A stretch of DNA of 36,640 nucleotides. Origin: Alphaproteobacteria bacterium (lineage in GTDB: Bacteria > Pseudomonadota > Alphaproteobacteria > VGDZ01). Each line of letters begins with the position of its first letter. Position 1 is the first letter of the stretch. Below are positions 2,465 through 13,985 of this stretch, piece after piece. The notes below the pieces were generated by a model. The model searched no databases. It was not told the origin of the DNA and saw only the letters and a program-made list of their open reading frames with translations. Location: assembly GCA_016869515.1 (NCBI GenBank), contig VGDZ01000026.1, positions 1-36,640 of the forward strand, read 5' to 3'. The position numbers were made by a program, and so were the translations under genes.

Positions 2465-3685
2465 TCAAGCGAGTTTGACGGCGCCCGATGCCGCGAGTCG
2501 CGCGATCGCGGCCGCATCGTAGCCGTGTTCCTGCAGCAGTACCCGGGTGTCCGCGCCCAGTGCGGGCGGCGGCGACGGCTGGGCGAAGCCGCCGTCCTGG
2601 ACGAAGCCCGGGCGAGTGACCCGCAGCGCCTGTCCGTCCGGTCCGGTCATGGCGATGGTCTCGACGAAACCGCGGTCGGCCAGTTGCCCGCCGGCGAGAG
2701 CTTCCGGCACGGTCACGATCCGCCCAGCCGGGACTCCGGCGGCGTTGAGCAGTTCTTCCCACTCGGTGGCGTCGCGCGCCGCAAGCGCGGCCGTGATCTC
2801 GCGGTTGAGCGCCGCGCGGTGGTCGAGCCGCGCCCGGCGTTCCGCGAAGCGCGGGTCGGTCTTGAGATCGGGACGGCCGATCAGATCGCACAGCGCGCGA
2901 TATTGCTTGTCTTCGTTGGCGGCGATGTTGAGCAGGCCGGCTTTGGTGGCGAAGGCGCCCGAGGGCGCGGCCGAGAAATTCTCGTTGCCCATGGGCCTGG
3001 GTTCGATGCCGGCATTGAGGTAGTTCGACACCACCCAGCCCATGGTCGCCAGCGTCGCTTCCATCAGCGCGAGGTCGATCCGCCGCCCGCGGCCGGATTG
3101 GCGCGCTTCGAGCAGCGCCGCGCAGATCGCGAATGCCGCGGTCAGGCCGCCATAGGTGTCGGAGATCGGAAACCCGGCGCGCAAGGGGGCGCTGGTGGCA
3201 TCGCCGGTGACGCTCATCGCCCCCGACAAGCCCTGGATGATCTGGTCATAGGCCGGCCGCTCGGCCCAGGGGCCTTCCTGTCCGAAACCGGAGATGGCGC
3301 AATAGACCAGGCGCGGATTGCGCGCGGCCAGGGTCGCATAGTCGAGGCCGAGCCGCGCCATGACGCCGGGCCGAAAGTTCTCCAGCACGACGTCGGCCCG
3401 CTCGACCATGCGCAAGAACACCTCGCGGCCCTCGGCGTGCTTGAGGTCGATCGCGACCGAACGCTTGGTGACATTGACCGCGACGAAGGACAGGCCCATG
3501 CCGCGGGCGTTCATGCGCGGATCGCCGCCCAGTCGCCGGGCGAGATCGCCGCCCACCGGGTTCTCGATCTTGATCACTTCGGCGCCCTGGCGCGCGAGCT
3601 GATAGCCGCAGAACGGACCGGCCAGGACGTTGGACAGGTCGAGGACGCGGATTCCGGAAAGCGGCGGAGCGGGCGCGGGTGTCAC
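2465..3685 (-). CDS. Type III CoA-transferase (CaiB/BaiF family)
   Basis: Family III CoA-transferases move CoA between carboxylic acids through an aspartyl-CoA anhydride. The N-terminus LSGIRVLDLSNVLAGPFCG is the family's usual opening, followed by GAEVIKIENPVGGD and the NFRPGVMARLGLDYATL segment. The aspartate equivalent to the catalytic residue of formyl-CoA transferase is in FPISDTYGG. I chose the GTG at 3685 because it overlaps the stop of the upstream channel gene as GTGA and gives 406 residues, normal for the family. A longer start at 3784 would run about 100 bases into that gene. It is last in the leftward operon with cysK, alaX, sseA, GNAT and FNT. The acyl substrate cannot be read from sequence. 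An oxalate/formate-type exchange is possible because the adjacent channel belongs to the formate/nitrite family, but this is inference. Confidence 0.88.
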   Translation of the reverse strand: MTPAPAPPLSGIRVLDLSNVLAGPFCGYQLARQGAEVIKIENPVGGDLARRLGGDPRMNARGMGLSFVAVNVTKRSVAIDLKHAEGREVFLRMVERADVVLENFRPGVMARLGLDYATLAARNPRLVYCAISGFGQEGPWAERPAYDQIIQGLSGAMSVTGDATSAPLRAGFPISDTYGGLTAAFAICAALLEARQSGRGRRIDLALMEATLATMGWVVSNYLNAGIEPRPMGNENFSAAPSGAFATKAGLLNIAANEDKQYRALCDLIGRPDLKTDPRFAERRARLDHRAALNREITAALAARDATEWEELLNAAGVPAGRIVTVPEALAGGQLADRGFVETIAMTGPDGQALRVTRPGFVQDGGFAQPSPPPALGADTRVLLQEHGYDAAAIARLAASGAVKLA

Positions 3686-4503
3686 GCGCTCGACGAGCCT
3701 TGCGAGCGGGCCCGGCGGTAGCACACCCAATAGACCAGGGCGACCCCGCCACCGCCGCCGACGATATTTCCCAGCGTCACCCAAAAGAGATGGACGAAGA
3801 ACAGTCCCGGCGCCACGCCCTCGGCGCCCAGCAGCCAGGCCAGCGGCACCAGATACATGTTGGCGATGCTGTGCTCGAAGCCCAGCGCGACGAAGGCCGA
3901 GATTGGCAGCACGATCGCCAGCACCTTGGAGGCGACGTCATGCGCCGCCAGGCACAGCCACACCGCCAAGCACACCAGCGCGTTGCAGAGGCCGCCGCGG
4001 ATCAGCGCTTCAAGCGGCGTCTGCGCCAGTTTGGCCTGGGCGATGGCCCGCGCCGTGGCCGCCGGCGCGCCGTCGCCCAGTGCCATCACCCCCGACAGCC
4101 AGATCAGCCAGGCCATGGCGGCGGCACCCGCGAAATTGGCCACATAGACCAGCAGCCAATTGCGCGCCAATTCGCCGCCGGCGATGCGGCGATCCACCCA
4201 GGCCATCACCATCAGCGCATTGCCGGTGAACAGCTCGGCTCCGGCCACCACCACCAGCACCAGGCCGAGCGAAAAGGCGGCGCCGCCCAAAAGTCGCGTC
4301 GGGCCGAAGCCGAAGGGCGAGCCGGTGACGGTGAAGGTGTAAAGCATGGCGCCGAAGGCGATGAAGGCTCCGGCCAGCGCCCCCAGCATCAAGGTCTCGA
4401 GCGCCGGCAGCCGCGCCTTGGCGGTGCCCATCGCCTCGACCCGCAGCGCGATCTCGGCGGGCGCATAGGCGTCGAGCGGGTTCGGGGTCGGCCGATCGCT
4501 CAT
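3682..4503 (-). CDS. Formate/nitrite transporter (FNT) family anion channel
   Basis: This is an inner-membrane pentameric channel of the FocA/NirC/HSC family, which conducts small monovalent anions such as formate, nitrite or hydrosulfide. The 273 residues contain six hydrophobic segments and the family landmarks: GAELFTGN (about 88-95), RGGLCNALVCLAVW (169-182) and GFEHSIANMY (208-217). The last includes the pore-lining histidine at 211. NIVGGGGGVALVYW closes the final helix. The gene starts 7 bases after the GNAT stop, and its own TGA overlaps the GTG of the CoA-transferase, so it is translationally coupled. Substrate is ambiguous. The CoA-transferase neighbour would suit formate. The mercaptopyruvate sulfurtransferase and cysteine synthase in the same operon would suit HS-. 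The family call is firm and the substrate is not. Confidence 0.92.
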   Translation of the reverse strand: MSDRPTPNPLDAYAPAEIALRVEAMGTAKARLPALETLMLGALAGAFIAFGAMLYTFTVTGSPFGFGPTRLLGGAAFSLGLVLVVVAGAELFTGNALMVMAWVDRRIAGGELARNWLLVYVANFAGAAAMAWLIWLSGVMALGDGAPAATARAIAQAKLAQTPLEALIRGGLCNALVCLAVWLCLAAHDVASKVLAIVLPISAFVALGFEHSIANMYLVPLAWLLGAEGVAPGLFFVHLFWVTLGNIVGGGGGVALVYWVCYRRARSQGSSSA

Positions 4504-4510
4504 TTCCAGC

Positions 4511-5059
4511 TCAGGGCATCGGTTCGATGAACATCTGGCGCCGATCGTAAGGCACGAAGCCGTGGCGCTGGTAAAGCGGCAGGGCGCGCGGATGGTCGAG
4601 GGTGTTGGTGTTGACCGTGACCCGCTCGGGGTTCTTCGACCAGGCTTGGTCGAGCCCGGCCCGCAGCAGCCAATCGCCCAGGCGCTTGCCGATGAATTCG
4701 GGCATCAGCCCGAAATAGGCGATGTCGACCGCCTTGGGAGCGCGGCGGGCGTCGACCTCGACATAGCCCGCCGGCACGCCGTTGACATAGGCCACCAGGA
4801 TTTCGATCCGGGGATCCTGAACGATGCGTCCCAGTTCGGCGTCGCTCATCCGACGCCGCTCGACCCAATGATAGGCCTTGCCGACGCCCTCGTAGAGAAA
4901 GCGGTAAAAGCGCACGGTCGGATTCTCGGCCCGCAACAAGGCGATCTTGCCCAGCGCCGCGGGCGGCTCGCGCCGCGGTCCCTCGGGACGGCGGAACATC
5001 TCGAGGAAAGTGACCGTGGCCTCGAGCGTGCGCCGCGGCGGGACCAGCGACAGGCTCAT
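4511..5059 (-). CDS. GNAT family N-acetyltransferase
   Basis: This 182-residue GNAT-fold acetyltransferase presumably transfers acetyl from acetyl-CoA to an amine. Visible features are the beta4 strand VDIAYFGLMPEFIGKRLG with the acetyl-CoA-binding turn, helix GDWLLRAGLDQAW, and the late NTNTLDHPRALPLYQRHGF motif that packs against the pantetheine arm. The N-terminal 50 residues are less conserved. The ATG at 5059 is chosen because it forms an ATGA overlap with the sulfurtransferase stop and begins MSLSLVPPRR. An upstream ATG at 5092 would overlap that gene by 37 bases. The gene lies between sseA and the FNT channel gene in the leftward operon. The acceptor substrate is unknown. Confidence 0.85.
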   Translation of the reverse strand: MSLSLVPPRRTLEATVTFLEMFRRPEGPRREPPAALGKIALLRAENPTVRFYRFLYEGVGKAYHWVERRRMSDAELGRIVQDPRIEILVAYVNGVPAGYVEVDARRAPKAVDIAYFGLMPEFIGKRLGDWLLRAGLDQAWSKNPERVTVNTNTLDHPRALPLYQRHGFVPYDRRQMFIEPMP

Positions 5060-5895
5060 GTCACCACCGGCGTATCCTGGCGCCCGCCCCATTCGGTCCA
5101 GGAGCCGTCGTAGATCGCCCAGTCGCGATGGCCGAGCATGTGCAGGGCAAATCCCAGCCAGCAGGCGGTCACGCCCGAGCCGCAGGAGGCGATCACCGGT
5201 CGAGCGAGATCGATGCCGGCGCCGAGGATGCGCTGACGCAGCGCATCGGCCGGCAGCAAGGTCTGGGTCTTGGCATCGAGCAGGCTTTCATAGGGCAGGT
5301 TGATGGCGCCCGGCATGTGGCCCGAGCGCAAGCCCGGCCGCGGCTCGGGCGCGGTGCCGGCGAAGCGGCCGGCGGCGCGGACGTCGACCACCTGCTCGCC
5401 GCCCTTCGGCAGGTTGGCCCGCACCTGGTCGAGATCGCGCACCAGCATGGTGTTCATGCGGGCGGTGAAATGGCGCTCGCGCGGGGTCGGCACGTCGGTC
5501 GTCGTCGGCCGGCCTTCGGCCTCCCATTTGGCGAAGCCGCCGTCCAGCACCGCCACGTCGCTGTGGCCGAAGAGGCGGAACATCCACCACGCCCGCGTCG
5601 CCGCCGACAGGCCCTTGTTGTAGATCACGATCCGGCTGCCGTCGCCCAGGCCCAGCTTGCGCACCCGGCTGGAGAACTTCTCCGGGCTGGGCAGCATGTG
5701 CGGCAGCGGATTCGTGTCGTCGGCGATGTCGTCGATGTCGAAATGGACCGCGCCCGGCAGATGGCCTTGGTCGTAAAGCTGGCGGCCGGTGTGCTGGAGG
5801 GTGAAGGTGGCGTCGACCACCCGCACGTCGGGCGCATCGTGATGCGCCGCCAGCCACTCGGTCGAGACCAGCGCGTTGGGATTGGCGTAAGGCAT
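5056..5895 (-). CDS. sseA: 3-mercaptopyruvate/thiosulfate sulfurtransferase, tandem rhodanese
   Basis: This protein transfers sulfane sulfur from 3-mercaptopyruvate or thiosulfate to a thiol acceptor. The first product with mercaptopyruvate is pyruvate plus a cysteine persulfide. The 279 residues hold two rhodanese domains. The N-terminal one (about 8-125) is inactive-type and includes HLPGAVHFDIDDIAD. The C-terminal one (about 150-275) carries the active-site loop CGSGVTA with Cys238. CGSGVTA is the signature of the mercaptopyruvate-type enzymes rather than CRKGVT rhodaneses. The ATG at 5895 is preceded by an AGGA-like ribosome site. The gene is 28 bases downstream of alaX and overlaps the GNAT gene by ATGA. 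Its operon with cysK and an FNT channel suggests a role in cysteine and sulfide balance. Confidence 0.92.
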   Translation of the reverse strand: MPYANPNALVSTEWLAAHHDAPDVRVVDATFTLQHTGRQLYDQGHLPGAVHFDIDDIADDTNPLPHMLPSPEKFSSRVRKLGLGDGSRIVIYNKGLSAATRAWWMFRLFGHSDVAVLDGGFAKWEAEGRPTTTDVPTPRERHFTARMNTMLVRDLDQVRANLPKGGEQVVDVRAAGRFAGTAPEPRPGLRSGHMPGAINLPYESLLDAKTQTLLPADALRQRILGAGIDLARPVIASCGSGVTACWLGFALHMLGHRDWAIYDGSWTEWGGRQDTPVVT

Positions 5896-5923
5896 GTCGG
5901 CGATCCTGGTTCTGCGGCCGGCG

Positions 5924-6628
5924 TCAGGCGAAGGCCACCATGACGCGGCGGTTGAGGCGGCCCTTCTTTTCGATCTTGGTTACGGCCACCTTGCCGATCT
6001 CCGAAGTCAGGCGGACATGGGTGCCGCCGCAAGGCTGCAAGTCGAGGCCGGCGACTTCGATCAGCCGCACCTTGCCCTGGCCGGTGGGCGGCTTGACCGA
6101 CATGGTCTTGACCAATTCCGGCTTCGCCGCCAACTCGGCATCCTCGATCCAGCGCGCCGCCACCGAATGATTGGCAGCCACCAATTCGTTGAGCTTGGCG
6201 CCGATCCGGTCCTTGTCGAGCGTGGCTTCGGGAATGTCGAAATCGAGCCGGCCCTTGCCGTCGCCGACCTGGCCGCCGGTGACCGGATAGGGCAGCACCG
6301 CCGACAGCAGATGCAGGCAGGTATGCATGCGCATCAGCCGGTAGCGGCGATCCCAGTCGATTTCGGCCGAGACCTTGGTGCCGACCGCCGGCGCAGTTGC
6401 GCCCTCGGCCAAAAGATGGATCACGCCGCCACTGGCGCCCTTGATCGCATCGGCGACCGCGACCGCCTGACCGTCGGCCAGGACCAGACGGCCGCTGTCG
6501 CCCGGCTGGCCGCCGCCGGTGGGATAGAACACGGTGCGGTCGAGTTCGACCTCGCGCCCCTCGGCGCGGGTGACGATGCCGGGGCAGGCCCGCAAATACG
6601 CGTCGTCGCGGAAAGCCAATTCGGTCAT
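5924..6628 (-). CDS. AlaX-type alanyl-tRNA editing protein
   Basis: This is a free-standing homologue of the AlaRS editing domain, which hydrolyses Ser-tRNA(Ala) (and Gly in some forms). The 234 residues show the zinc site expected of the family: H102TCLH106 (HxxxH) and C200GGTH204 (CxxxH). The N-terminal YPTGGGQPGDSG loop is the conserved glycine-rich motif of AlaX-M proteins. The length fits the medium AlaX class and there is no aminoacylation domain. It sits 21 bases after cysK and 28 bases before sseA in the same operon. Serine is the precursor of cysteine, so pairing a serine mischarging editor with cysteine synthase makes physiological sense, but that link is inference. Confidence 0.92.
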   Translation of the reverse strand: MTELAFRDDAYLRACPGIVTRAEGREVELDRTVFYPTGGGQPGDSGRLVLADGQAVAVADAIKGASGGVIHLLAEGATAPAVGTKVSAEIDWDRRYRLMRMHTCLHLLSAVLPYPVTGGQVGDGKGRLDFDIPEATLDKDRIGAKLNELVAANHSVAARWIEDAELAAKPELVKTMSVKPPTGQGKVRLIEVAGLDLQPCGGTHVRLTSEIGKVAVTKIEKKGRLNRRVMVAFA

Positions 6629-6649
6629 GGACGGTCTTTCGGGTTTCGC

Positions 6650-7654
6650 TCAGCCTTCCAGCCAGCCCGGCACCGGCAGGTTCTTGGACTTGAGGAAGGC
6701 GGGGTTGAACAGCTTGGACTGATAGCGGCTGCCGCTATCGGCCAGGATGGTGACGATGGTGTGGCCGGGACCCATGTCCTTGGCCAGGCGGATGGCGGCG
6801 GCGACGTTGATTGCCGACGATCCGCCCAGGCACAGCCCTTCGTGCTGGAGCAGGTCGAACAGCACCGGCAGCGCCTCCTCGTCCGGGATGCGATAGGCGT
6901 CGTCGATCGGCGCGCTTTCGAGATTCTTGGTGATGCGGCCCTGGCCGATGCCCTCGGTGATCGAGCTGCCTTCGGCCTTGAGTTCGCCGTGCTTGTAGTG
7001 GTGATAGAGCGCGGCGCCCATCGGGTCGGCCAGGACGATGCGCACCTTGTGGTTGTTGGCCTTGAGCGCGATGGCGCAGCCGGCCAGCGTGCCGCCGGTG
7101 CCGACCGCGCAGGTGAAAGCGTCGACGCGGCCTTCGGTCTGGCGCCAGATCTCGGGGCCGGTGCCGATGACATGGGCCAGCCGGTTGGCGGTGTTGTCGA
7201 ACTGGTTGGCCCAGACCGCGCCCGCCTTCTCGGTCCGATTCAACTCCTCGGCCAGGCGGCCGGAATATTTGACGTAGTTGTTGGGGTCCTTGTAGGGCAC
7301 GGCTGGCACTAGGCGCAGATCGGCGCCGCACAGCCGCAGCATGTCCTTCTTTTCCTGGCTTTGGGTGTCGGGCATGACGATGACGGTGCGATAGCCGCGG
7401 GCATTGGCCACCAGCGCCAGGCCGATGCCGGTATTGCCGGCGGTGCCTTCGACCACCGCGCCGCCCGGCTTGAGCAGGCCCTTTTCTTCGGCGTCGCGGA
7501 TGATGAACCACGCGGCGCGGTCCTTGACCGAGCCGCCGGGGTTGAGGAACTCGGCCTTGCCCAAGATCTCGCAGCCCGTGGCGGCCGAGGCCCGCTTGAG
7601 CTTGATCAGCGGCGTCTCGCCGATCGAGCCCACGAAACCGTCGCGAACGTCCAT
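6650..7654 (-). CDS. cysK: Cysteine synthase A (O-acetylserine sulfhydrylase)
   Basis: This is a PLP enzyme making cysteine from O-acetylserine and sulfide, acting in the cytoplasm. The 334 residues show the PLP lysine in NPGGSVKDRAAW (Lys44), the substrate loop EGTAGNTGIG (69-78), and the phosphate-binding loop VGTGGTLAG. The protein is about 20 residues longer than E. coli CysK, typical of a common alphaproteobacterial subgroup. The start at 7654 (MDVRDGFVGSIGETPL) is preferred over an in-frame codon at 7753. The longer form would reach past the promoter at 7680-7708 and into the divergent GNAT gene. A GGGAATTGGGG stretch lies just before the ATG as ribosome site. It is the first gene of a six-gene leftward operon ending with the CoA-transferase. 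Confidence 0.93.
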   Translation of the reverse strand: MDVRDGFVGSIGETPLIKLKRASAATGCEILGKAEFLNPGGSVKDRAAWFIIRDAEEKGLLKPGGAVVEGTAGNTGIGLALVANARGYRTVIVMPDTQSQEKKDMLRLCGADLRLVPAVPYKDPNNYVKYSGRLAEELNRTEKAGAVWANQFDNTANRLAHVIGTGPEIWRQTEGRVDAFTCAVGTGGTLAGCAIALKANNHKVRIVLADPMGAALYHHYKHGELKAEGSSITEGIGQGRITKNLESAPIDDAYRIPDEEALPVLFDLLQHEGLCLGGSSAINVAAAIRLAKDMGPGHTIVTILADSGSRYQSKLFNPAFLKSKNLPVPGWLEG

Positions 7655-7679
7655 GCCCCAATTCCCTTGTCCGGCGCCG

Positions 7680-7708
7680 AAGCTAGCGGGGGCGCGGTCC
7701 CGGTTCAA
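7680..7708 (-). promoter_or_regulatory. Probable sigma-70-type promoter of the cysK operon
   Basis: Read on the minus strand, TTGAAC (7708-7703) is followed after 17 bases by TAGCTT (7685-7680). The -35 matches consensus at four of six positions and the weak -10 is usual for alphaproteobacteria. Transcription would start near 7673, about 18 bases before the cysK ATG at 7654. No other promoter-like gap exists downstream, so it probably drives all six genes. Confidence 0.45.
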
Positions 7709-7736
7709 GCCGGCGATGGGCATGCTAGAAGGCGTC

Positions 7737-8246
7737 ATGTCCGTCCTGACCACGGCGCGGCTGATCCTGCGCCCGTTCCGATCCGACGACCTTGCCGCCT
7801 ATGCCGCGATCCGCGCCCGGCCGGAAGTCGCGCGCTGGCTGCCGCCGGGCAGCGAGCCGGCCGAAGTGCGGGCGCGCAAGACCATCGAAGCCTTCGCCGC
7901 GGCGTGGGCCGAGCGCGGCTACGGTCCGCATGCCGCCTTCGACCGCGCCAGCGGCCGGCTGCTCGGTCATCTCGGCCTGCGCTATCTGCCGCAATTCGAG
8001 GAGACCGAAGTCCTTTATGCGCTGACGCCGGAGGTCTGGGGTCAGGGGCTGGCGTTCGAAGGCACGGCCGCGGCGCGGGATTGGGGATTCGGCGCGCTCG
8101 GGCTCGCGCGGCTGATGGCCATAACCTTGGCCGAGAACCGCGCCTCGCGGCGGGTAATGGAAAAGCTTGGTCTGCGCTACGAGAAGGACACCGTGTTCCA
8201 CGATCTGCCGGTGGTCTATTACGCGCTGGATCGGCCGGGCGCGTGA
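7737..8246 (+). CDS. GNAT acetyltransferase, RimJ/RimL-like
   Basis: This 169-residue acetyltransferase of the Acetyltransf_3 (RimJ/RimL) type opens with LTTARLILRPFRSDDL, the classic N-terminus of this group. EVLYALTPEVWGQGLAFEG carries the beta-bulge and acetyl-CoA pyrophosphate-binding turn, and LAENRASRRVMEKLGLRYE is the standard closing helix-strand motif. Members acetylate ribosomal-protein N-termini, amino sugars or small amines. The substrate here is open. The ATG at 7737 is preceded by AGAAGG. Transcribed divergently from cysK, with 82 bases between starts. Its stop is followed one base later by the ATG of the membrane-protein gene, so the two are probably cotranscribed. Confidence 0.88.
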   Translation: MSVLTTARLILRPFRSDDLAAYAAIRARPEVARWLPPGSEPAEVRARKTIEAFAAAWAERGYGPHAAFDRASGRLLGHLGLRYLPQFEETEVLYALTPEVWGQGLAFEGTAAARDWGFGALGLARLMAITLAENRASRRVMEKLGLRYEKDTVFHDLPVVYYALDRPGA

Positions 8247-8247
8247 G

Positions 8248-8949
8248 ATGATTCCGCAGATCCTGCGCTGGGCGGCGATCGGCTATGTCGTCATCGCCGC
8301 CGCCAGCAAATCCTATTACTGGTTCCTGCCCAACACGCCGATCGGCGTGGCGCTGGAATTGGCGATGGCGGCGGCGGCGCTGGCTTTCGCGCGCTGGCCC
8401 TGGGCGATGGCGCCGGCGGCGCTGGCCTATGGCTTGGCTTCGGCCCAGTTCTATGGACCCGATCCGAACGGCACTTGGCGGGCAGAGGGACTGAAATCCT
8501 ATCTCTATGCGCCGCGGCAATGCGGGCTCGGGATCCGCTTTCCGGCGTCGCCGCGCGCGGGCGCGGGCGAGGTGCTGGGGCAGCGGGGCGAGATCGCGCT
8601 TTATGCCGATCTGCCGTCGCGGACGGCACTGCGCGCGGAGTGCCTGCGGGTGAACGCGCCCGAGGCCGAATTGGCGGCGCTGTCGGCGCGGATGCTGGAC
8701 GAATGGGCGCGCCGCGCCAAGCTCGAGATCAGCCATCGCGAACAGGTCGCGCGCGGCGACGTCACGGTCATGACCCTGGTCGGCGAAAGCCACGGCCTTT
8801 CGGCCGAAAACGAGAAGACCGTCAATCGGGTCGAGTTGCGGCTGACGCTGATCGGCCGGGGGCTGATGCTGGCGATCGCCATGGCGCCCGGCGATGCGCC
8901 CTGGCCGGAGATGGCCGAACGCTTCCTCACCAGCGTGACGGCGCGATAG
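8248..8949 (+). CDS. Unknown membrane-anchored protein
   Basis: I do not recognise this 233-residue protein. The first 70 residues are hydrophobic and likely make two or three membrane helices (about 5-22, 31-48 and 51-68). A soluble region of about 160 residues follows, with an acidic/alanine helix APEAELAALSARMLDEWARR and strand-like stretches VTVMTLVGES and VELRLTLIGRGLMLAIAM. The soluble part resembles a small alpha/beta domain that could lie outside the membrane. The start is fixed by spacing: the ATG comes one base after the GNAT stop. It ends 10 bases before the promoter of the pseudo-caspase gene. No catalytic motif is visible. Confidence 0.7.
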   Translation: MIPQILRWAAIGYVVIAAASKSYYWFLPNTPIGVALELAMAAAALAFARWPWAMAPAALAYGLASAQFYGPDPNGTWRAEGLKSYLYAPRQCGLGIRFPASPRAGAGEVLGQRGEIALYADLPSRTALRAECLRVNAPEAELAALSARMLDEWARRAKLEISHREQVARGDVTVMTLVGESHGLSAENEKTVNRVELRLTLIGRGLMLAIAMAPGDAPWPEMAERFLTSVTAR

Positions 8950-8959
8950 TTGGTCGGAG

Positions 8960-8987
8960 TTGAAAAACCACGCCGCGCCGCTACCAT
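8960..8987 (+). promoter_or_regulatory. Probable promoter of the pseudo-caspase/FGE gene pair
   Basis: TTGAAA (8960-8965) and TACCAT (8982-8987) are separated by 16 bases, a good alphaproteobacterial sigma-70-type pair. Transcription would begin near 8994, giving a leader of about 20 bases before the GTG at 9014. This argues against the alternative TTG start at 8960, which coincides with the -35 box. Confidence 0.45.
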
Positions 8988-9013: not shown

Positions 9014-10702
9014 GTGGTTCGGTCAGGGTTAGCCGTATTGTTGGCGATGGTGACGGCGTCCGCGGGACTCGCCTCCGAGCCGCGGTTTCGGGAGCCCAAT
9101 GCCGGAACCGTCGCCATTATCATCGGCAACAAGAACTATCGGCACTCCGAATTGCCAAATGTCGAGCGCGCCTATGAGGACGCCGAGGCCATGCGCCGTT
9201 TTGCGGTGGACGTGTTGGGCGTGCCGACGGAAGACGTCAGGGTACTGCGCGACGCCACCAAGGCGATGATGGAGACGGTTTTTGGAAATTCCTCCAATCA
9301 TCGCGGCCGTCTCCTGCGCCATGGCCACTTGCCCGATCCCGCGCATATCATCATCTACTACTCTGGCCACGGCGCGCCAGGTGCGCGCAACAAGCGCCCA
9401 CATCTCATGCCGGTCGAAGCCCACCCCGATTCGGCCGAGGTCGAGGGCTACTCCCTGATCGACCTTTACGTAAACCTGTACCGCCTCAACGTCACTACCG
9501 CGACGCTGTTGCTCGACACTGGGTTCTCCGGTGCAACACATCGGGGAATGGCGATTTCGAAATCCAGGCCCGTGGCGGCAACGTTGGAACCGCCTTACAC
9601 CGTACCAGGATTGGTGGTCATGACGGCGTCGTCGGGGGCGGAAGCGTCCTATGGCCCGGCGACAAAGACCCATGGCCCCTTTACCGAGTTCCTGTTGCAA
9701 GGGCTTTATGGCGCGGCTGATCGCGGTCCGGGCGGCAATGGCGACGGCCAGATCACCATCGCCGAACTCAAGTCCTATCTCGACCGGAATATGAGCCCGC
9801 AGGTCTTGGCCGCCATCGGCCGCCCACGGCAGGCCGAAGTACTGGGCGATGCCTCGCGCGTGGTCGTTCAATTCGATCCCGGCAAGTTGCCGCTCAGGCC
9901 ACAGATCGATCTCGCCGCCATCGATGCCGCGACCGTCTTCCGATTGCAGCCGATCGAATCGCCGACTGTGAGAGCGGAACCGGGGCCGACGTTTCGCGAT
10001 TGCCCAACCTGTCCCGAAATGGTGACGGTTCCGGCCGGCAGTTTCGTCATGGGTAGCAACGCCGTCGATTCGATGCGCGGCGCGTTTCCCGCACGACGCG
10101 TCGAATTGGCAAGTTTCGGGCTGGGAAGAACCGAAGTCACGATTCAGCAATGGCGGGCTTGCGCGGAGGCCGCCGATTGCAAAGGTGATTTGGTTCGCGA
10201 TGCGCCGGGGACGGAGAACCTGCCGGTCAACGGACTTTCGTGGCAGGAGGCGCAGTCCTACATCGCGTGGCTGCGCAGGATTACCGGCAAGCGCTACCGG
10301 TTGCCGAGCGAATCGGAGTGGGAGTATGCGGCGCGCGGCGGAACGACGTCGCGTTACGTCTGCGGCAACGACTGGCGATGTTTGAACGACATCGCCTGGT
10401 ATTCGCGCAATTCGGGCGGGGCCGTGCGACCGGTTGCGACCAAGCGGCCGAATGCCTTTGGCCTATACGACATGCTCGGCAATGTGGGCGAATGGGTCGA
10501 GGACTGCAGATATTCATCGTTCTTTGGAGCCCCGACCGATGGCCGAGCTTGGGTCGCAAGCAATTGCAAGGCGCGCATTTGGCGGGGCGGAGATTGGGAT
10601 TCTTCACCGGCCGACATGCCGGTGGACAGCCGCTGGAGCGGTGATATCGAATCGCGGTATCGCGCCTACGGTCTGCGCGTGGCCAGAGATTTGGCGCCAT
10701 GA
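9014..10702 (+). CDS. Secreted caspase-fold protein lacking catalytic Cys, fused to FGE/SUMF domain
   Basis: This is a two-domain exported protein of 562 residues from the GTG at 9014. A signal peptide (VRSGLAVLLAMVTASAGLAS) is followed by a peptidase C14-like domain (about 25-290): VAIIIGNKNY strand, the histidine motif IIYYSGHG (His119), and LLLDTGFSG where active relatives have DxCxSG. The cysteine position is Gly170 (codon ggg, 9521-9523), so proteolysis is unlikely. An EF-hand-like GNGDGQITIAEL lies near 245. From about 325 a formylglycine-generating-enzyme-like domain begins with FRDCPTCPEMVTVPAGSFVM, then YRLPSESEWEYAARGG, NAFGLYDMLGNVGEWVEDC and YGLRVARDL. The Cys-x4-Cys pair that real FGEs carry after RGG(S)W is missing. 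The frame is intact and an ATGA overlap couples it to the next gene. Likely a periplasmic binding or scaffold protein; function unknown. Confidence 0.88.
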   Translation: MVRSGLAVLLAMVTASAGLASEPRFREPNAGTVAIIIGNKNYRHSELPNVERAYEDAEAMRRFAVDVLGVPTEDVRVLRDATKAMMETVFGNSSNHRGRLLRHGHLPDPAHIIIYYSGHGAPGARNKRPHLMPVEAHPDSAEVEGYSLIDLYVNLYRLNVTTATLLLDTGFSGATHRGMAISKSRPVAATLEPPYTVPGLVVMTASSGAEASYGPATKTHGPFTEFLLQGLYGAADRGPGGNGDGQITIAELKSYLDRNMSPQVLAAIGRPRQAEVLGDASRVVVQFDPGKLPLRPQIDLAAIDAATVFRLQPIESPTVRAEPGPTFRDCPTCPEMVTVPAGSFVMGSNAVDSMRGAFPARRVELASFGLGRTEVTIQQWRACAEAADCKGDLVRDAPGTENLPVNGLSWQEAQSYIAWLRRITGKRYRLPSESEWEYAARGGTTSRYVCGNDWRCLNDIAWYSRNSGGAVRPVATKRPNAFGLYDMLGNVGEWVEDCRYSSFFGAPTDGRAWVASNCKARIWRGGDWDSSPADMPVDSRWSGDIESRYRAYGLRVARDLAP

Positions 10703-11508
10703 GATATGGCCAAGGCTTGGTGCTTGCTTGGGTCGCGGTGGCGGCGACCACAGTCATGGCGCAGGCCGCCGGACAGGTGTTTCGCGATTGCCCGCAATGC
10801 CCCGAGATGATCGTGGTTCCGGCGGGGAGTTTCGTCATGGGCTCGGGGCCGCACTTGGAGTCCGAAGAGGATGACGAATATGTCGACCAGCGCGAGACAC
10901 CCGCCCGCACCGTGGCGATGCGGGGCTTCGCGCTTGGACGGACCGAGGTGACGTTTCGACAATGGGATGCCTGCGTCGCTTCGGGGGCCTGCATTCATCG
11001 GCCGCATGACGAGGATTGGGGACGCGGAACCCGGCCAGCGATCAATGTCTCGTGGCATGACGCCAAGCAGTACCTCGATTGGTTGAGCCGCACGACCGGC
11101 AAGCGTTACCGATTGCCGAGCGAGGCGGAATGGGAATATGCCGCGCGCGCCGGGACCACGACCCACTATCATTGCGGAAAGAGGGTGCAATGCCTGCTCG
11201 ACACGGCCTGGACCAAGATGAACAGCCATGACCACTCGCAGCGGGTCGCTACGCGCAAGGCCAACCGATTCGGACTGCACGACATGGTCGGCAATGTCTA
11301 CGAATGGGTCGAGGATTGCTGGTTTCCCGATTATACCGCTGCTCCGGCAGATGGGCGCGTGCGGGCCGTCGAAGCCTGTCCACGCCGCACATTGCGCGGC
11401 GGGTCTTGGTTGGTCGGGGGACATCTCGGCCGGCCGGCCAGCAGGCTCGGCTACGATCCAAACTATCGGGGCAACGATATGGGGTTTCGTGTGGCACGCG
11501 ACGAATAG
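10699..11508 (+). CDS. Secreted FGE/SUMF-domain protein, catalytic cysteines absent
   Basis: This 269-residue exported protein consists of a signal peptide (RYGQGLVLAWVAVAATTVMA) and one FGE-sulfatase domain. The domain opens FRDCPQCPEMIVVPAGSFVM, nearly identical to the C-terminal domain of the preceding protein, then ALGRTEVTFRQWDAC, RYRLPSEAEWEYAARAG, NRFGLHDMVGNVYEWVEDC and DMGFRVARDE. The cysteine pair of true formylglycine-generating enzymes, expected after RGGSW, is replaced by VGGHLGRPAS. Oxidation of a sulfatase cysteine is therefore unlikely. The ATG overlaps the upstream stop (ATGA), so the two proteins are made together. They probably arose by duplication of one domain and may act as partners in the periplasm. 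The gene ends 12 bases before the compound palindrome. Confidence 0.9.
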   Translation: MRYGQGLVLAWVAVAATTVMAQAAGQVFRDCPQCPEMIVVPAGSFVMGSGPHLESEEDDEYVDQRETPARTVAMRGFALGRTEVTFRQWDACVASGACIHRPHDEDWGRGTRPAINVSWHDAKQYLDWLSRTTGKRYRLPSEAEWEYAARAGTTTHYHCGKRVQCLLDTAWTKMNSHDHSQRVATRKANRFGLHDMVGNVYEWVEDCWFPDYTAAPADGRVRAVEACPRRTLRGGSWLVGGHLGRPASRLGYDPNYRGNDMGFRVARDE

Positions 11509-11688: not shown

Positions 11689-12504
11689 TCAGAGCGAGCG
11701 GATGTCGCCGTCGAGCGTTGCGCCGAAGCGCTGGAAGAACAGCCGCCAGAACAGCCGGTGCTCGGGTCCCTGGTTGGCGCGGAATTTCTCGCGGCCGACC
11801 TGGTGAATCACCACCACGGTCCCGGCCAGGTTGGGCTTGAGATCGCGATAGGGCTGGGCGCGGTAGATCTGATCGTAGCCGCCGATGCGGCGGTAATGCG
11901 AGAAACCGGCGGTGTGCTCCAGCATGTCCGAGACGATCACCAAACGGCGCGACCCGACCGAGGTGAAGGGCTCGAGCCGCGAGATCGCCTCGATCGAGCC
12001 GACGATCGGCGATTGGTCGTGGGTCGAGGCGACGGTGAACTCGTCGAGCACGACGTCGAGCGGGCGCTTGAAATTGGTGTCGTGGAGCTGCTGGATGCGT
12101 TCGGCGGTCTCGACCAGGACCTTTGCGTCCGGCGCGCGGCCCGGGTTGCAATAGGAGAACACCCGGATCGGCGAGACGTCGGTGGTCTGGGTGATGGTGT
12201 AGATCGACAGCCATTCGTGGCGCGGCAGCCGGCGCGCCTCCTCCAGCACGATCTTGCGCAGATTGTCGGTCTGCAACTTGGTGAGCGGATCGGTGCGGTC
12301 GACCAATACCACCACATGCAGCTTGGGGGCCTGGTCTTCGCGACAATTGGTTTCCTTGTCGACGCTCGGCGGGACGAAGAACACCGATCCGCTCAGCAGC
12401 AGAAACAGCGCCGTCACCGCCATGCCGAGCCCGATCCAGGTCCAGCGGCCGATATCGCCGCGGGTGACCGCGCGCCGAAATCCGGCTGAGGTGCGGCGAC
12501 GCAT
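11689..12504 (-). CDS. Membrane-anchored protein with von Willebrand A-like domain
   Basis: The 271-residue protein has a basic N-terminus, one membrane helix at about 22-45 (GLGMAVTALFLLLSGSVFF), and a periplasmic domain. The domain begins KLHVVVLVDRTDPLTKLQTD, which looks like the first strand of a vWA/Rossmann-type fold followed by Asp-x-Thr-Asp. Further strands are RLVIVSDMLEH and GTVVVIHQVGRE. A full MIDAS (DxSxS) is not present: the sequence is D-R-T-D-P-L-T, so metal binding is uncertain. The ATG at 12504 lies two bases after the upstream stop, so it is cotranscribed with the four-helix membrane protein. I do not recognise a named family. A periplasmic partner or ligand-binding role is inference. 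Confidence 0.72.
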   Translation of the reverse strand: MRRRTSAGFRRAVTRGDIGRWTWIGLGMAVTALFLLLSGSVFFVPPSVDKETNCREDQAPKLHVVVLVDRTDPLTKLQTDNLRKIVLEEARRLPRHEWLSIYTITQTTDVSPIRVFSYCNPGRAPDAKVLVETAERIQQLHDTNFKRPLDVVLDEFTVASTHDQSPIVGSIEAISRLEPFTSVGSRRLVIVSDMLEHTAGFSHYRRIGGYDQIYRAQPYRDLKPNLAGTVVVIHQVGREKFRANQGPEHRLFWRLFFQRFGATLDGDIRSL

Positions 12505-12506
12505 GG

Positions 12507-13985
12507 TCAGATCGCGTAGGGATCGACCCGATCGCGCTTGCGGCGGTTTTCGCTCGCCAGGGTCTCTGCCTGGGCCTTGATGCCCGCCACCCAAGTCGAG
12601 AACGCGTCGATCTCGGCCGCTACGATCTGCTCGACCTCGACCTTGGCTCCTGGGGCTGCGCGCTTGGTGGCGCCGATCACCGTCCACAATTCCGCGCCCA
12701 GCGCGTCGGCGATCTTGGGGTCGGGCTGCTTGATCTGAATGTCGAGGTCGACCGGCTGATTGAAATATGGCGGTGCCGCGGTCCGGCGGCTGGCGCGATT
12801 GGCGTCACGGTAGTCGTTGACGACGACGTTGCACGCGCTTTGCGATTCGGATGCCAGTCGGTCGAAGGCGCGGCGCCGAATTTCGGCGGCATAGCGGGCT
12901 TGATCGAGGCTTTCCATGCTCCTGTCCCAATAGGTCACGCGCTGATCGACTTCGTCGACGCCGTCTTCGGCCAGATCCGAGATTTCCGTCTGCAATTGCT
13001 TGCGTGCGTCCTCGAACGCCGTTTCGGTCGCCAGATAGCGTCGATAGACCGCGCTGTAACCGGGATAGGGATCCTCGGCGAAATATCCCGTCTGCAGCGC
13101 CGCGATGGCGATCATGATGCCGACCAGAAACAGCAGCCAGGAATCGAAGTTGGTGACGCCGAAGAATCGACTCAGCAGGCGCTCGATCACCATCTGCAGC
13201 GCCTTGTCCCAAAACGACTGATTGTCGAGAACGTCGCGATAATGCGCCACCGCCAAGTTGAAAGCGACGATGAGCGCCAAGCCGAGCAATCCGCCGATAT
13301 AGCCCGCCAGCCGGCGCGGCAGCTGGACATGGTGAATGTTGCGGATCACCAGCCAGCCGATCAGGCAGGCGGCGGCGACGTTCACGCCGGTGATGAAAAA
13401 GGCGCGGACCGCGCCGCCGAGCAGGCCGAGATCGGTCGCCAGCCGGAAGAAGTAGGCGTTGAAGCCGGTCTCGACCGACAGCATGACGAATACGCCGCCG
13501 AACAGCGCGATGGGATTGCGCGCCGGCACCGGCAAATGTGTCAGCCGATTGACTTCCTTGAATTTGTGGAAATCGTCGAACGCTTCCAGGCGGTCGACCC
13601 AAAGCTGGCGAAGCTCTTCGGCGGCATTGACCCGGGTTTGCATGGCGCGAGCGCGGATCGTGGCCGGAATATCGCCCAGGTCCGAGGTGTTCTGCTGGGC
13701 GGCGATGCGCTGGACGTTGAGATGCTGTTCGAACAGCACCCGTTCGGCATCTTCGCGCGCGTCGTCGACCACGCGCTGATAGGTGTCGGTTACGCGGCGT
13801 TGCGTGCTGTCGAGGGCGGTATCGGCCTCGTTCGGAAGGTCGTTGGCGCCCTGGCGCGTGGCGATGCGGACGACGTCGAGCTGCCGCGAGACTTTTTCAG
13901 GATCAGGCACGCGATAGCGCGGCTCGACCCCTTGGGGGACGTCGCGGCTGGGTCCGCCGTTGCGGCGCAAGAATCCTCCGAACAT
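12507..13985 (-). CDS. Unknown four-helix membrane protein with coiled-coil arms
   Basis: The 492-residue protein has a long hydrophilic, helix-rich N-terminal arm (about 30-150, rich in Arg, Asp and Gln). Four membrane helices follow near 158-180, 190-214, 226-248 and 281-302, then a second charged helical arm (about 310-400) including ETAFEDARKQLQTEISDLAE, and a soluble tail. No catalytic motif is visible. The layout recalls membrane proteins that oligomerise through coiled coils, but I cannot name the family. The ATG at 13985 has GAAGGAG at a suitable distance upstream. Its stop is two bases before the vWA-like gene, so they form a two-gene operon transcribed leftward from the gap shared with the ABC-transporter operon. 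Confidence 0.75.
   Translation of the reverse strand: MFGGFLRRNGGPSRDVPQGVEPRYRVPDPEKVSRQLDVVRIATRQGANDLPNEADTALDSTQRRVTDTYQRVVDDAREDAERVLFEQHLNVQRIAAQQNTSDLGDIPATIRARAMQTRVNAAEELRQLWVDRLEAFDDFHKFKEVNRLTHLPVPARNPIALFGGVFVMLSVETGFNAYFFRLATDLGLLGGAVRAFFITGVNVAAACLIGWLVIRNIHHVQLPRRLAGYIGGLLGLALIVAFNLAVAHYRDVLDNQSFWDKALQMVIERLLSRFFGVTNFDSWLLFLVGIMIAIAALQTGYFAEDPYPGYSAVYRRYLATETAFEDARKQLQTEISDLAEDGVDEVDQRVTYWDRSMESLDQARYAAEIRRRAFDRLASESQSACNVVVNDYRDANRASRRTAAPPYFNQPVDLDIQIKQPDPKIADALGAELWTVIGATKRAAPGAKVEVEQIVAAEIDAFSTWVAGIKAQAETLASENRRKRDRVDPYAI

Follow-up and report, generated by a model that had tools for sequence, protein, structure and literature searches.

The window, a 36,640-nt stretch of alphaproteobacterial DNA (contig VGDZ01000026.1 of assembly GCA_016869515.1), contains on its plus strand a 562-codon frame that, by open reading frame analysis and translation, opens with GTG at 9014 and closes at 10702. 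The encoded protein begins with a putative signal peptide, continues with a caspase-fold domain and ends in an FGE-like domain, and its frame runs without a break, as the original prediction for this locus had held. The features of this gene and of the one that follows it are:

9014–10702, plus strand: gene for the pseudo-caspase/FGE-like fusion protein of 562 aa, starting with GTG about 5 nt behind a GAGG motif
9014–9073, plus strand: putative signal peptide, VVRSGLAVLLAMVTASAGLA, followed by SE (heuristic call; hydropathy peak at residues 4–12; similar paralogue N termini)
9098–9868, plus strand: caspase-fold domain without catalytic Cys (Pfam C14, profile match, AF2 and Foldseek)
9356–9373, plus strand: YYSGHG with retained His119, residues 115–120 (translation and dyad alignment)
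9515–9532, plus strand: DTGFSG replacing DACFSG, within LLLDTGFSG (Gly170 codon GGG at 9521–9523)
9641–9658, plus strand: E-A-S-Y-G-P replacing the substrate-loop signature Q-x-A-S-W-D, residues 210–215 (alignment)
9992–10699, plus strand: FGE-like (PvdO-type) domain without FGE active-site cysteines, beginning FRDCPTCPEM
10699–11508, plus strand: exported FGE-like-only gene, 269 aa, joined to the fusion gene stop by an ATGA overlap

By eye and by a hydropathy heuristic, the N terminus carries one Arg, a hydrophobic stretch and small residues (GLA-SE), and export of the fusion protein via this putative signal peptide is plausible. An alternative TTG start lies at 8960, where GGAG abuts the start codon with zero spacing. 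The promoter proposed originally comes down to a single weak 9/12 site at 8960–8987 that does not clearly exceed chance, with 2 promoter-like sites found versus 0.7 ± 0.9 in shuffled sequence. The downstream gene encodes a protein with an export-type N terminus, an FGE-like domain and no other domain, and is likely to be a translationally coupled partner of the pseudo-caspase gene. Just upstream of the fusion gene (8248–8949, plus strand) lies a gene whose 233-aa product has hydrophobic segments at its N terminus and no confident family. Two minus-strand genes further downstream, at 11689–12687 and 12507–13985, gave no Pfam, NCBIfam or PADLOC match; one product is a multi-helix membrane protein, the other has sequence reminiscent of a vWA domain (VVLVDRTDPL... 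LVIVSDMLEH).

State of the caspase active site

The N-terminal domain matched Pfam Peptidase_C14 over residues 33–232 with 32.1 bits against a cut-off of 21.4. The full-length AF2 model was weak (pLDDT 68.8, pTM 0.50) and its best Foldseek matches fell on the FGE part; the caspase domain was therefore modelled separately, which gave a pTM of 0.82. Foldseek searches with this model returned 3v4o as the best match (E=3.5e-11), with the MALT1 caspase domain, metacaspases and caspases among the best PDB matches, so that the caspase fold looks intact within the limits of the six-row alignment behind the model.

The histidine of the catalytic dyad is kept in YYSGHG and codon 170, aligned with the catalytic-cysteine column, reads GGG, both as originally claimed. 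An alignment of homologues at the Gly170 column, proposed at the time as a check, revealed His/Cys in 55 of the 56 distinct sequences that were readable at both dyad columns, the window protein alone having His/Gly. The relatives were drawn from own-genome paralogues, the class, the phylum and named genomes, with genus, family and order each represented by one genome, that of the source itself. Most of them were found with the window protein as query and the remainder by profile or family searches; the 55:1 split is therefore no artefact of searching with active enzymes only. With Gly170 the domain lacks the catalytic cysteine that defines an active C14 peptidase. A sequencing error behind Gly170 was considered and rejected: a cysteine codon (TGY) is two base changes away from GGG, and other active-site columns are altered independently.

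To describe these further alterations, we defined near-invariant columns as those at least 90% conserved among 26 close relatives, which gave 59 columns. The window protein has lost 17 of them (29%), compared with a median of 3.3% and a maximum of 19% among the close relatives. The losses include Y130H, L132M, C170G, S185R, L222P, A264V-R265L and Q272R, together with the run Q210E-A212S-S213Y-W214G-D215P, their placing relative to the active site resting on the alignment. This run removes the A-S-W-D signature, which, judged by its position behind the strand that follows the cysteine, we take to be the counterpart of the S-W-R substrate loop (L3) of animal caspases. The remaining 42 of the 59 columns are retained. 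Kept residues comprise His119 in S-G-H-G, D56, D168, G38-N39, F171-S172-G173 and most scaffold glycines; D56 is one of the retained near-invariant columns and D168 is visible in DTGFSG. These two aspartates occupy the two acidic S1-pocket positions, as assigned by metacaspase alignment and PMC6426788.

Cleavage could in principle persist if Thr169 or Ser172, which flank the site, served as nucleophile beside the kept His119, or if a cysteine were supplied from elsewhere. We consider this highly improbable. Ser172 is near-invariant in active relatives as a residue of the SG motif, and the S-W-D loop and Gln272 are gone. The cysteines of the window protein are at positions 330, 333, 383, 389, 450, 456, 498 and 518, leaving none before residue 330 and hence no substitute within the caspase domain; a nearby cysteine taking over the catalytic position, named originally as evidence that would overturn the prediction, is thus absent. 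Taken together, the 55:1 cysteine column and the additional loss of the S-W-D loop and Gln272 strongly support the reading of this domain as a pseudo-protease. By its caspase p20 fold, substituted His-Cys dyad and retained acidic-pocket aspartates, the window protein is a pseudo-orthocaspase.

The FGE-like tail

The C-terminal domain matched Pfam FGE-sulfatase over residues 333–558 with 153 bits. There is no Cys beyond residue 518, where the FGE active-site pair would sit, and the tail thus lacks the cysteine pair near the C terminus by which a formylglycine-generating enzyme is recognized. The absence of these cysteines had been noted in the original prediction and is correct, but the conclusion drawn from it does not carry over: all seven FGE domains of the source genome lack the pair, which is therefore a family property and not a special loss. 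The closest solved relative of the tail was PvdO of Pseudomonas aeruginosa (5hha; 124.6 bits; TM score of 0.81, relative to the target); next came FGE enzymes, TvpA and PorK. PvdO has the same FGE-like fold at 35% identity and no caspase domain, and the tail scored 157 bits with the NCBIfam PvdO equivalog model, below its cut-off of 500. PorK, another FGE-like fold without the cysteine pair, acts as a non-enzymatic docking hub in the envelope (PMC12421860). PorK/GldK proteins share the fold but have no caspase domain, and the window tail scores well below the curated GldK cut-off.

These matches bear on the idea that the gene is retained for its FGE-like domain alone, with the caspase fold as an inert spacer and the tail, alongside the FGE-only neighbour, as a binder or a PvdO-like oxidoreductase. 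The FGE part does score much higher than the caspase part (153 versus 32 bits), PvdO is the best solved relative and an FGE-only gene adjoins; however, the FGE part is likewise fast-evolving, an inert spacer need not keep His119 and both pocket aspartates, and the PvdO score lies far under the cut-off, making this explanation rather improbable in our view. The tail as a variable recognition protein diversified by a diversity-generating retroelement (DGR) was also tried. Its C-terminal ...GxRVAR end and the pairing of a long and a short FGE gene resemble DGR targets (PMC10907252), and TvpA is among the structural relatives, but no reverse transcriptase was found in the 97% complete assembly and the C-terminal 143 bases have no template repeat in the genome or near the gene. 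We rejected this candidate, which is barely conceivable for an assembly in which neither element was found.

Paralogues and tempo of evolution

Exported caspase–FGE paralogues with an intact DACFSG are encoded on contigs C30 and C32 of the same genome, and fragments on C149 and C42 also carry DACFSG. The own-genome paralogues (C30 and C32, and fragments on C149, C42 and C18) share the caspase and FGE-like domains with the window protein at 38–43% caspase-domain identity, and the hydrophobic export-type N terminus is common to the window protein and the C30 and C32 paralogues. They retain DACFSG and ASWD, whereas the window protein has neither. Contigs C149, C42 and C18 end inside caspase–FGE genes (loci L006, L018 and L011), with exact contig-end overlaps of 127 bases between C149 and C42 and 113 bases between C42 and C18; their caspase parts are near-identical and their FGE tails differ. 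The shared overlaps and differing tails mean that the genome contains copies left unresolved in the assembly. A further caspase of the source genome (L015, on C128) has Sel1-like repeats in front and the variant motif LEACFSGG. Tandem caspase–FGE genes with intact DACFSG lie at 2767–5412 and 5920–8577 of a locus from Nitrospira sp. bin75 (L025), one with two FGE-like domains and the other with an FGE domain bearing large inserts. The viral contigs searched held no relative of the window protein, and the plasmids searched gave partial matches only, none over 80% of the protein.

The window protein has evolved fast in both domains. The terminal branch of its caspase domain was 1.67 changes per site, against a median of 0.30 and about 0.3 for two own-genome caspase–FGE paralogues, and that of the FGE domain was 1.82, against a median of 0.68. 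Third-position GC across 9014–11508, which covers the pseudo-caspase and FGE-only genes, was 0.73, compared with 0.79–0.89 in three nearby genes and 0.85–0.86 in the C30 and C32 paralogues. The long branches and low third-position GC possibly reflect weakened constraint on the whole gene. About 860 amino-acid changes were inferred on the branches. An unconstrained gene should have collected about 40 stops along with them, and 0 are present; the estimate presumes a neutral branch throughout, a recent onset of decay being compatible with zero stops.

Slow decay is the explanation that these rates bring forward: a redundant copy among caspase–FGE paralogues would have lost its active site under relaxed selection while its frame is still unbroken. 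The acceleration of both domains, the lowered third-position GC, the highest number of conserved-column losses within the group and the coexistence of intact paralogues in the genome all fit. Against this, the frame, the export signal and 42 of the 59 near-invariant columns survive a long branch, none of the roughly 40 stops expected without constraint throughout is present, and the losses are concentrated on the catalytic and substrate loops; we regard decay as unlikely, though it keeps appreciable weight. The original claim that the protein is maintained finds support in the retained columns and in a frame that has stayed intact along the long branches, and is weakened by the fast evolution of both domains, with which relaxed selection would agree as well. 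The counter-evidence named for it, homologues with the cysteine combined with relaxed selection on this gene, was found in its first part, own-genome paralogues included; in its second part the signs point both ways. Most likely, the protein is exported and maintained in a non-proteolytic role, either binding or regulatory.

Proposed origin and comparison with known systems

We propose, with a probability of roughly 0.6, that the gene product is secreted and is a pseudo-orthocaspase bearing an FGE-like tail, and that it arose from a duplicated active caspase–FGE gene, lost its nucleophile and substrate loop, and was retained. The ancestor would have been an active exported caspase–FGE gene of the type still found in the source genome; after duplication, loss of the nucleophile and of the loop that binds the substrate would have deprived one copy of the ability to cleave, and this copy would then have been kept. 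By analogy with PorK, the FGE-like domain may offer a periplasmic surface for docking or binding, and the caspase domain, with its acidic pocket kept, may partner or compete with the active caspase–FGE paralogues without cleaving. The FGE-only protein, translated directly afterwards, probably works alongside the pseudo-caspase. A more specific version, in which the protein would be a periplasmic c-FLIP counterpart that, with the FGE-only partner, joins or competes with active paralogue complexes and so sets their activity in the envelope, is doubtful.

Pseudo-orthocaspases are numerous, yet nearly untested, and a genome with exported dead and exported active copies of one architecture is convenient for asking whether the dead regulate the live. 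According to PMC6426788, pseudo-orthocaspases account for 18.9% of alphaproteobacterial orthocaspases and are abundant also in Cyanobacteria, with His-Gly dyads listed for Synechococcus PCC 7502 and PCC 7335. A pro-death role of the Synechocystis orthocaspase SyOC under oxidative stress has been suggested on the strength of a knock-out (PMC7889975). The window protein has in common with bacterial pseudo-orthocaspases (PMC6426788; SyOC, PMC7889975) a p20-type fold, a broken dyad and retained acidic-pocket aspartates. The alphaproteobacterial examples described in the consulted passages of PMC6426788 are almost all from Rhizobiales and mostly have Tyr-Ser, Tyr-Ala, Phe-Ser, Gln-Cys or His-Ala dyads, with no FGE tail described there, whereas the window protein has His-Gly, carries an FGE tail and, relative to the pseudo-orthocaspases described there, has additionally lost the S-W-D loop.

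Fusions of caspase and FGE-sulfatase domains account for 33 of 671 prokaryotic sequences in PMC3501461, which records a Trichodesmium erythraeum caspase–FGE fusion as catalytic-dyad negative. Published precedents exist for pseudo-orthocaspases in bacteria, for His-Gly dyads and for a catalytically negative caspase–FGE fusion, and the window protein combines known features. It shares its domain order with the known caspase/FGE-sulfatase fusions (PMC3501461) and differs from them in being alphaproteobacterial, in its putative signal peptide and in having intact paralogues in its genome.
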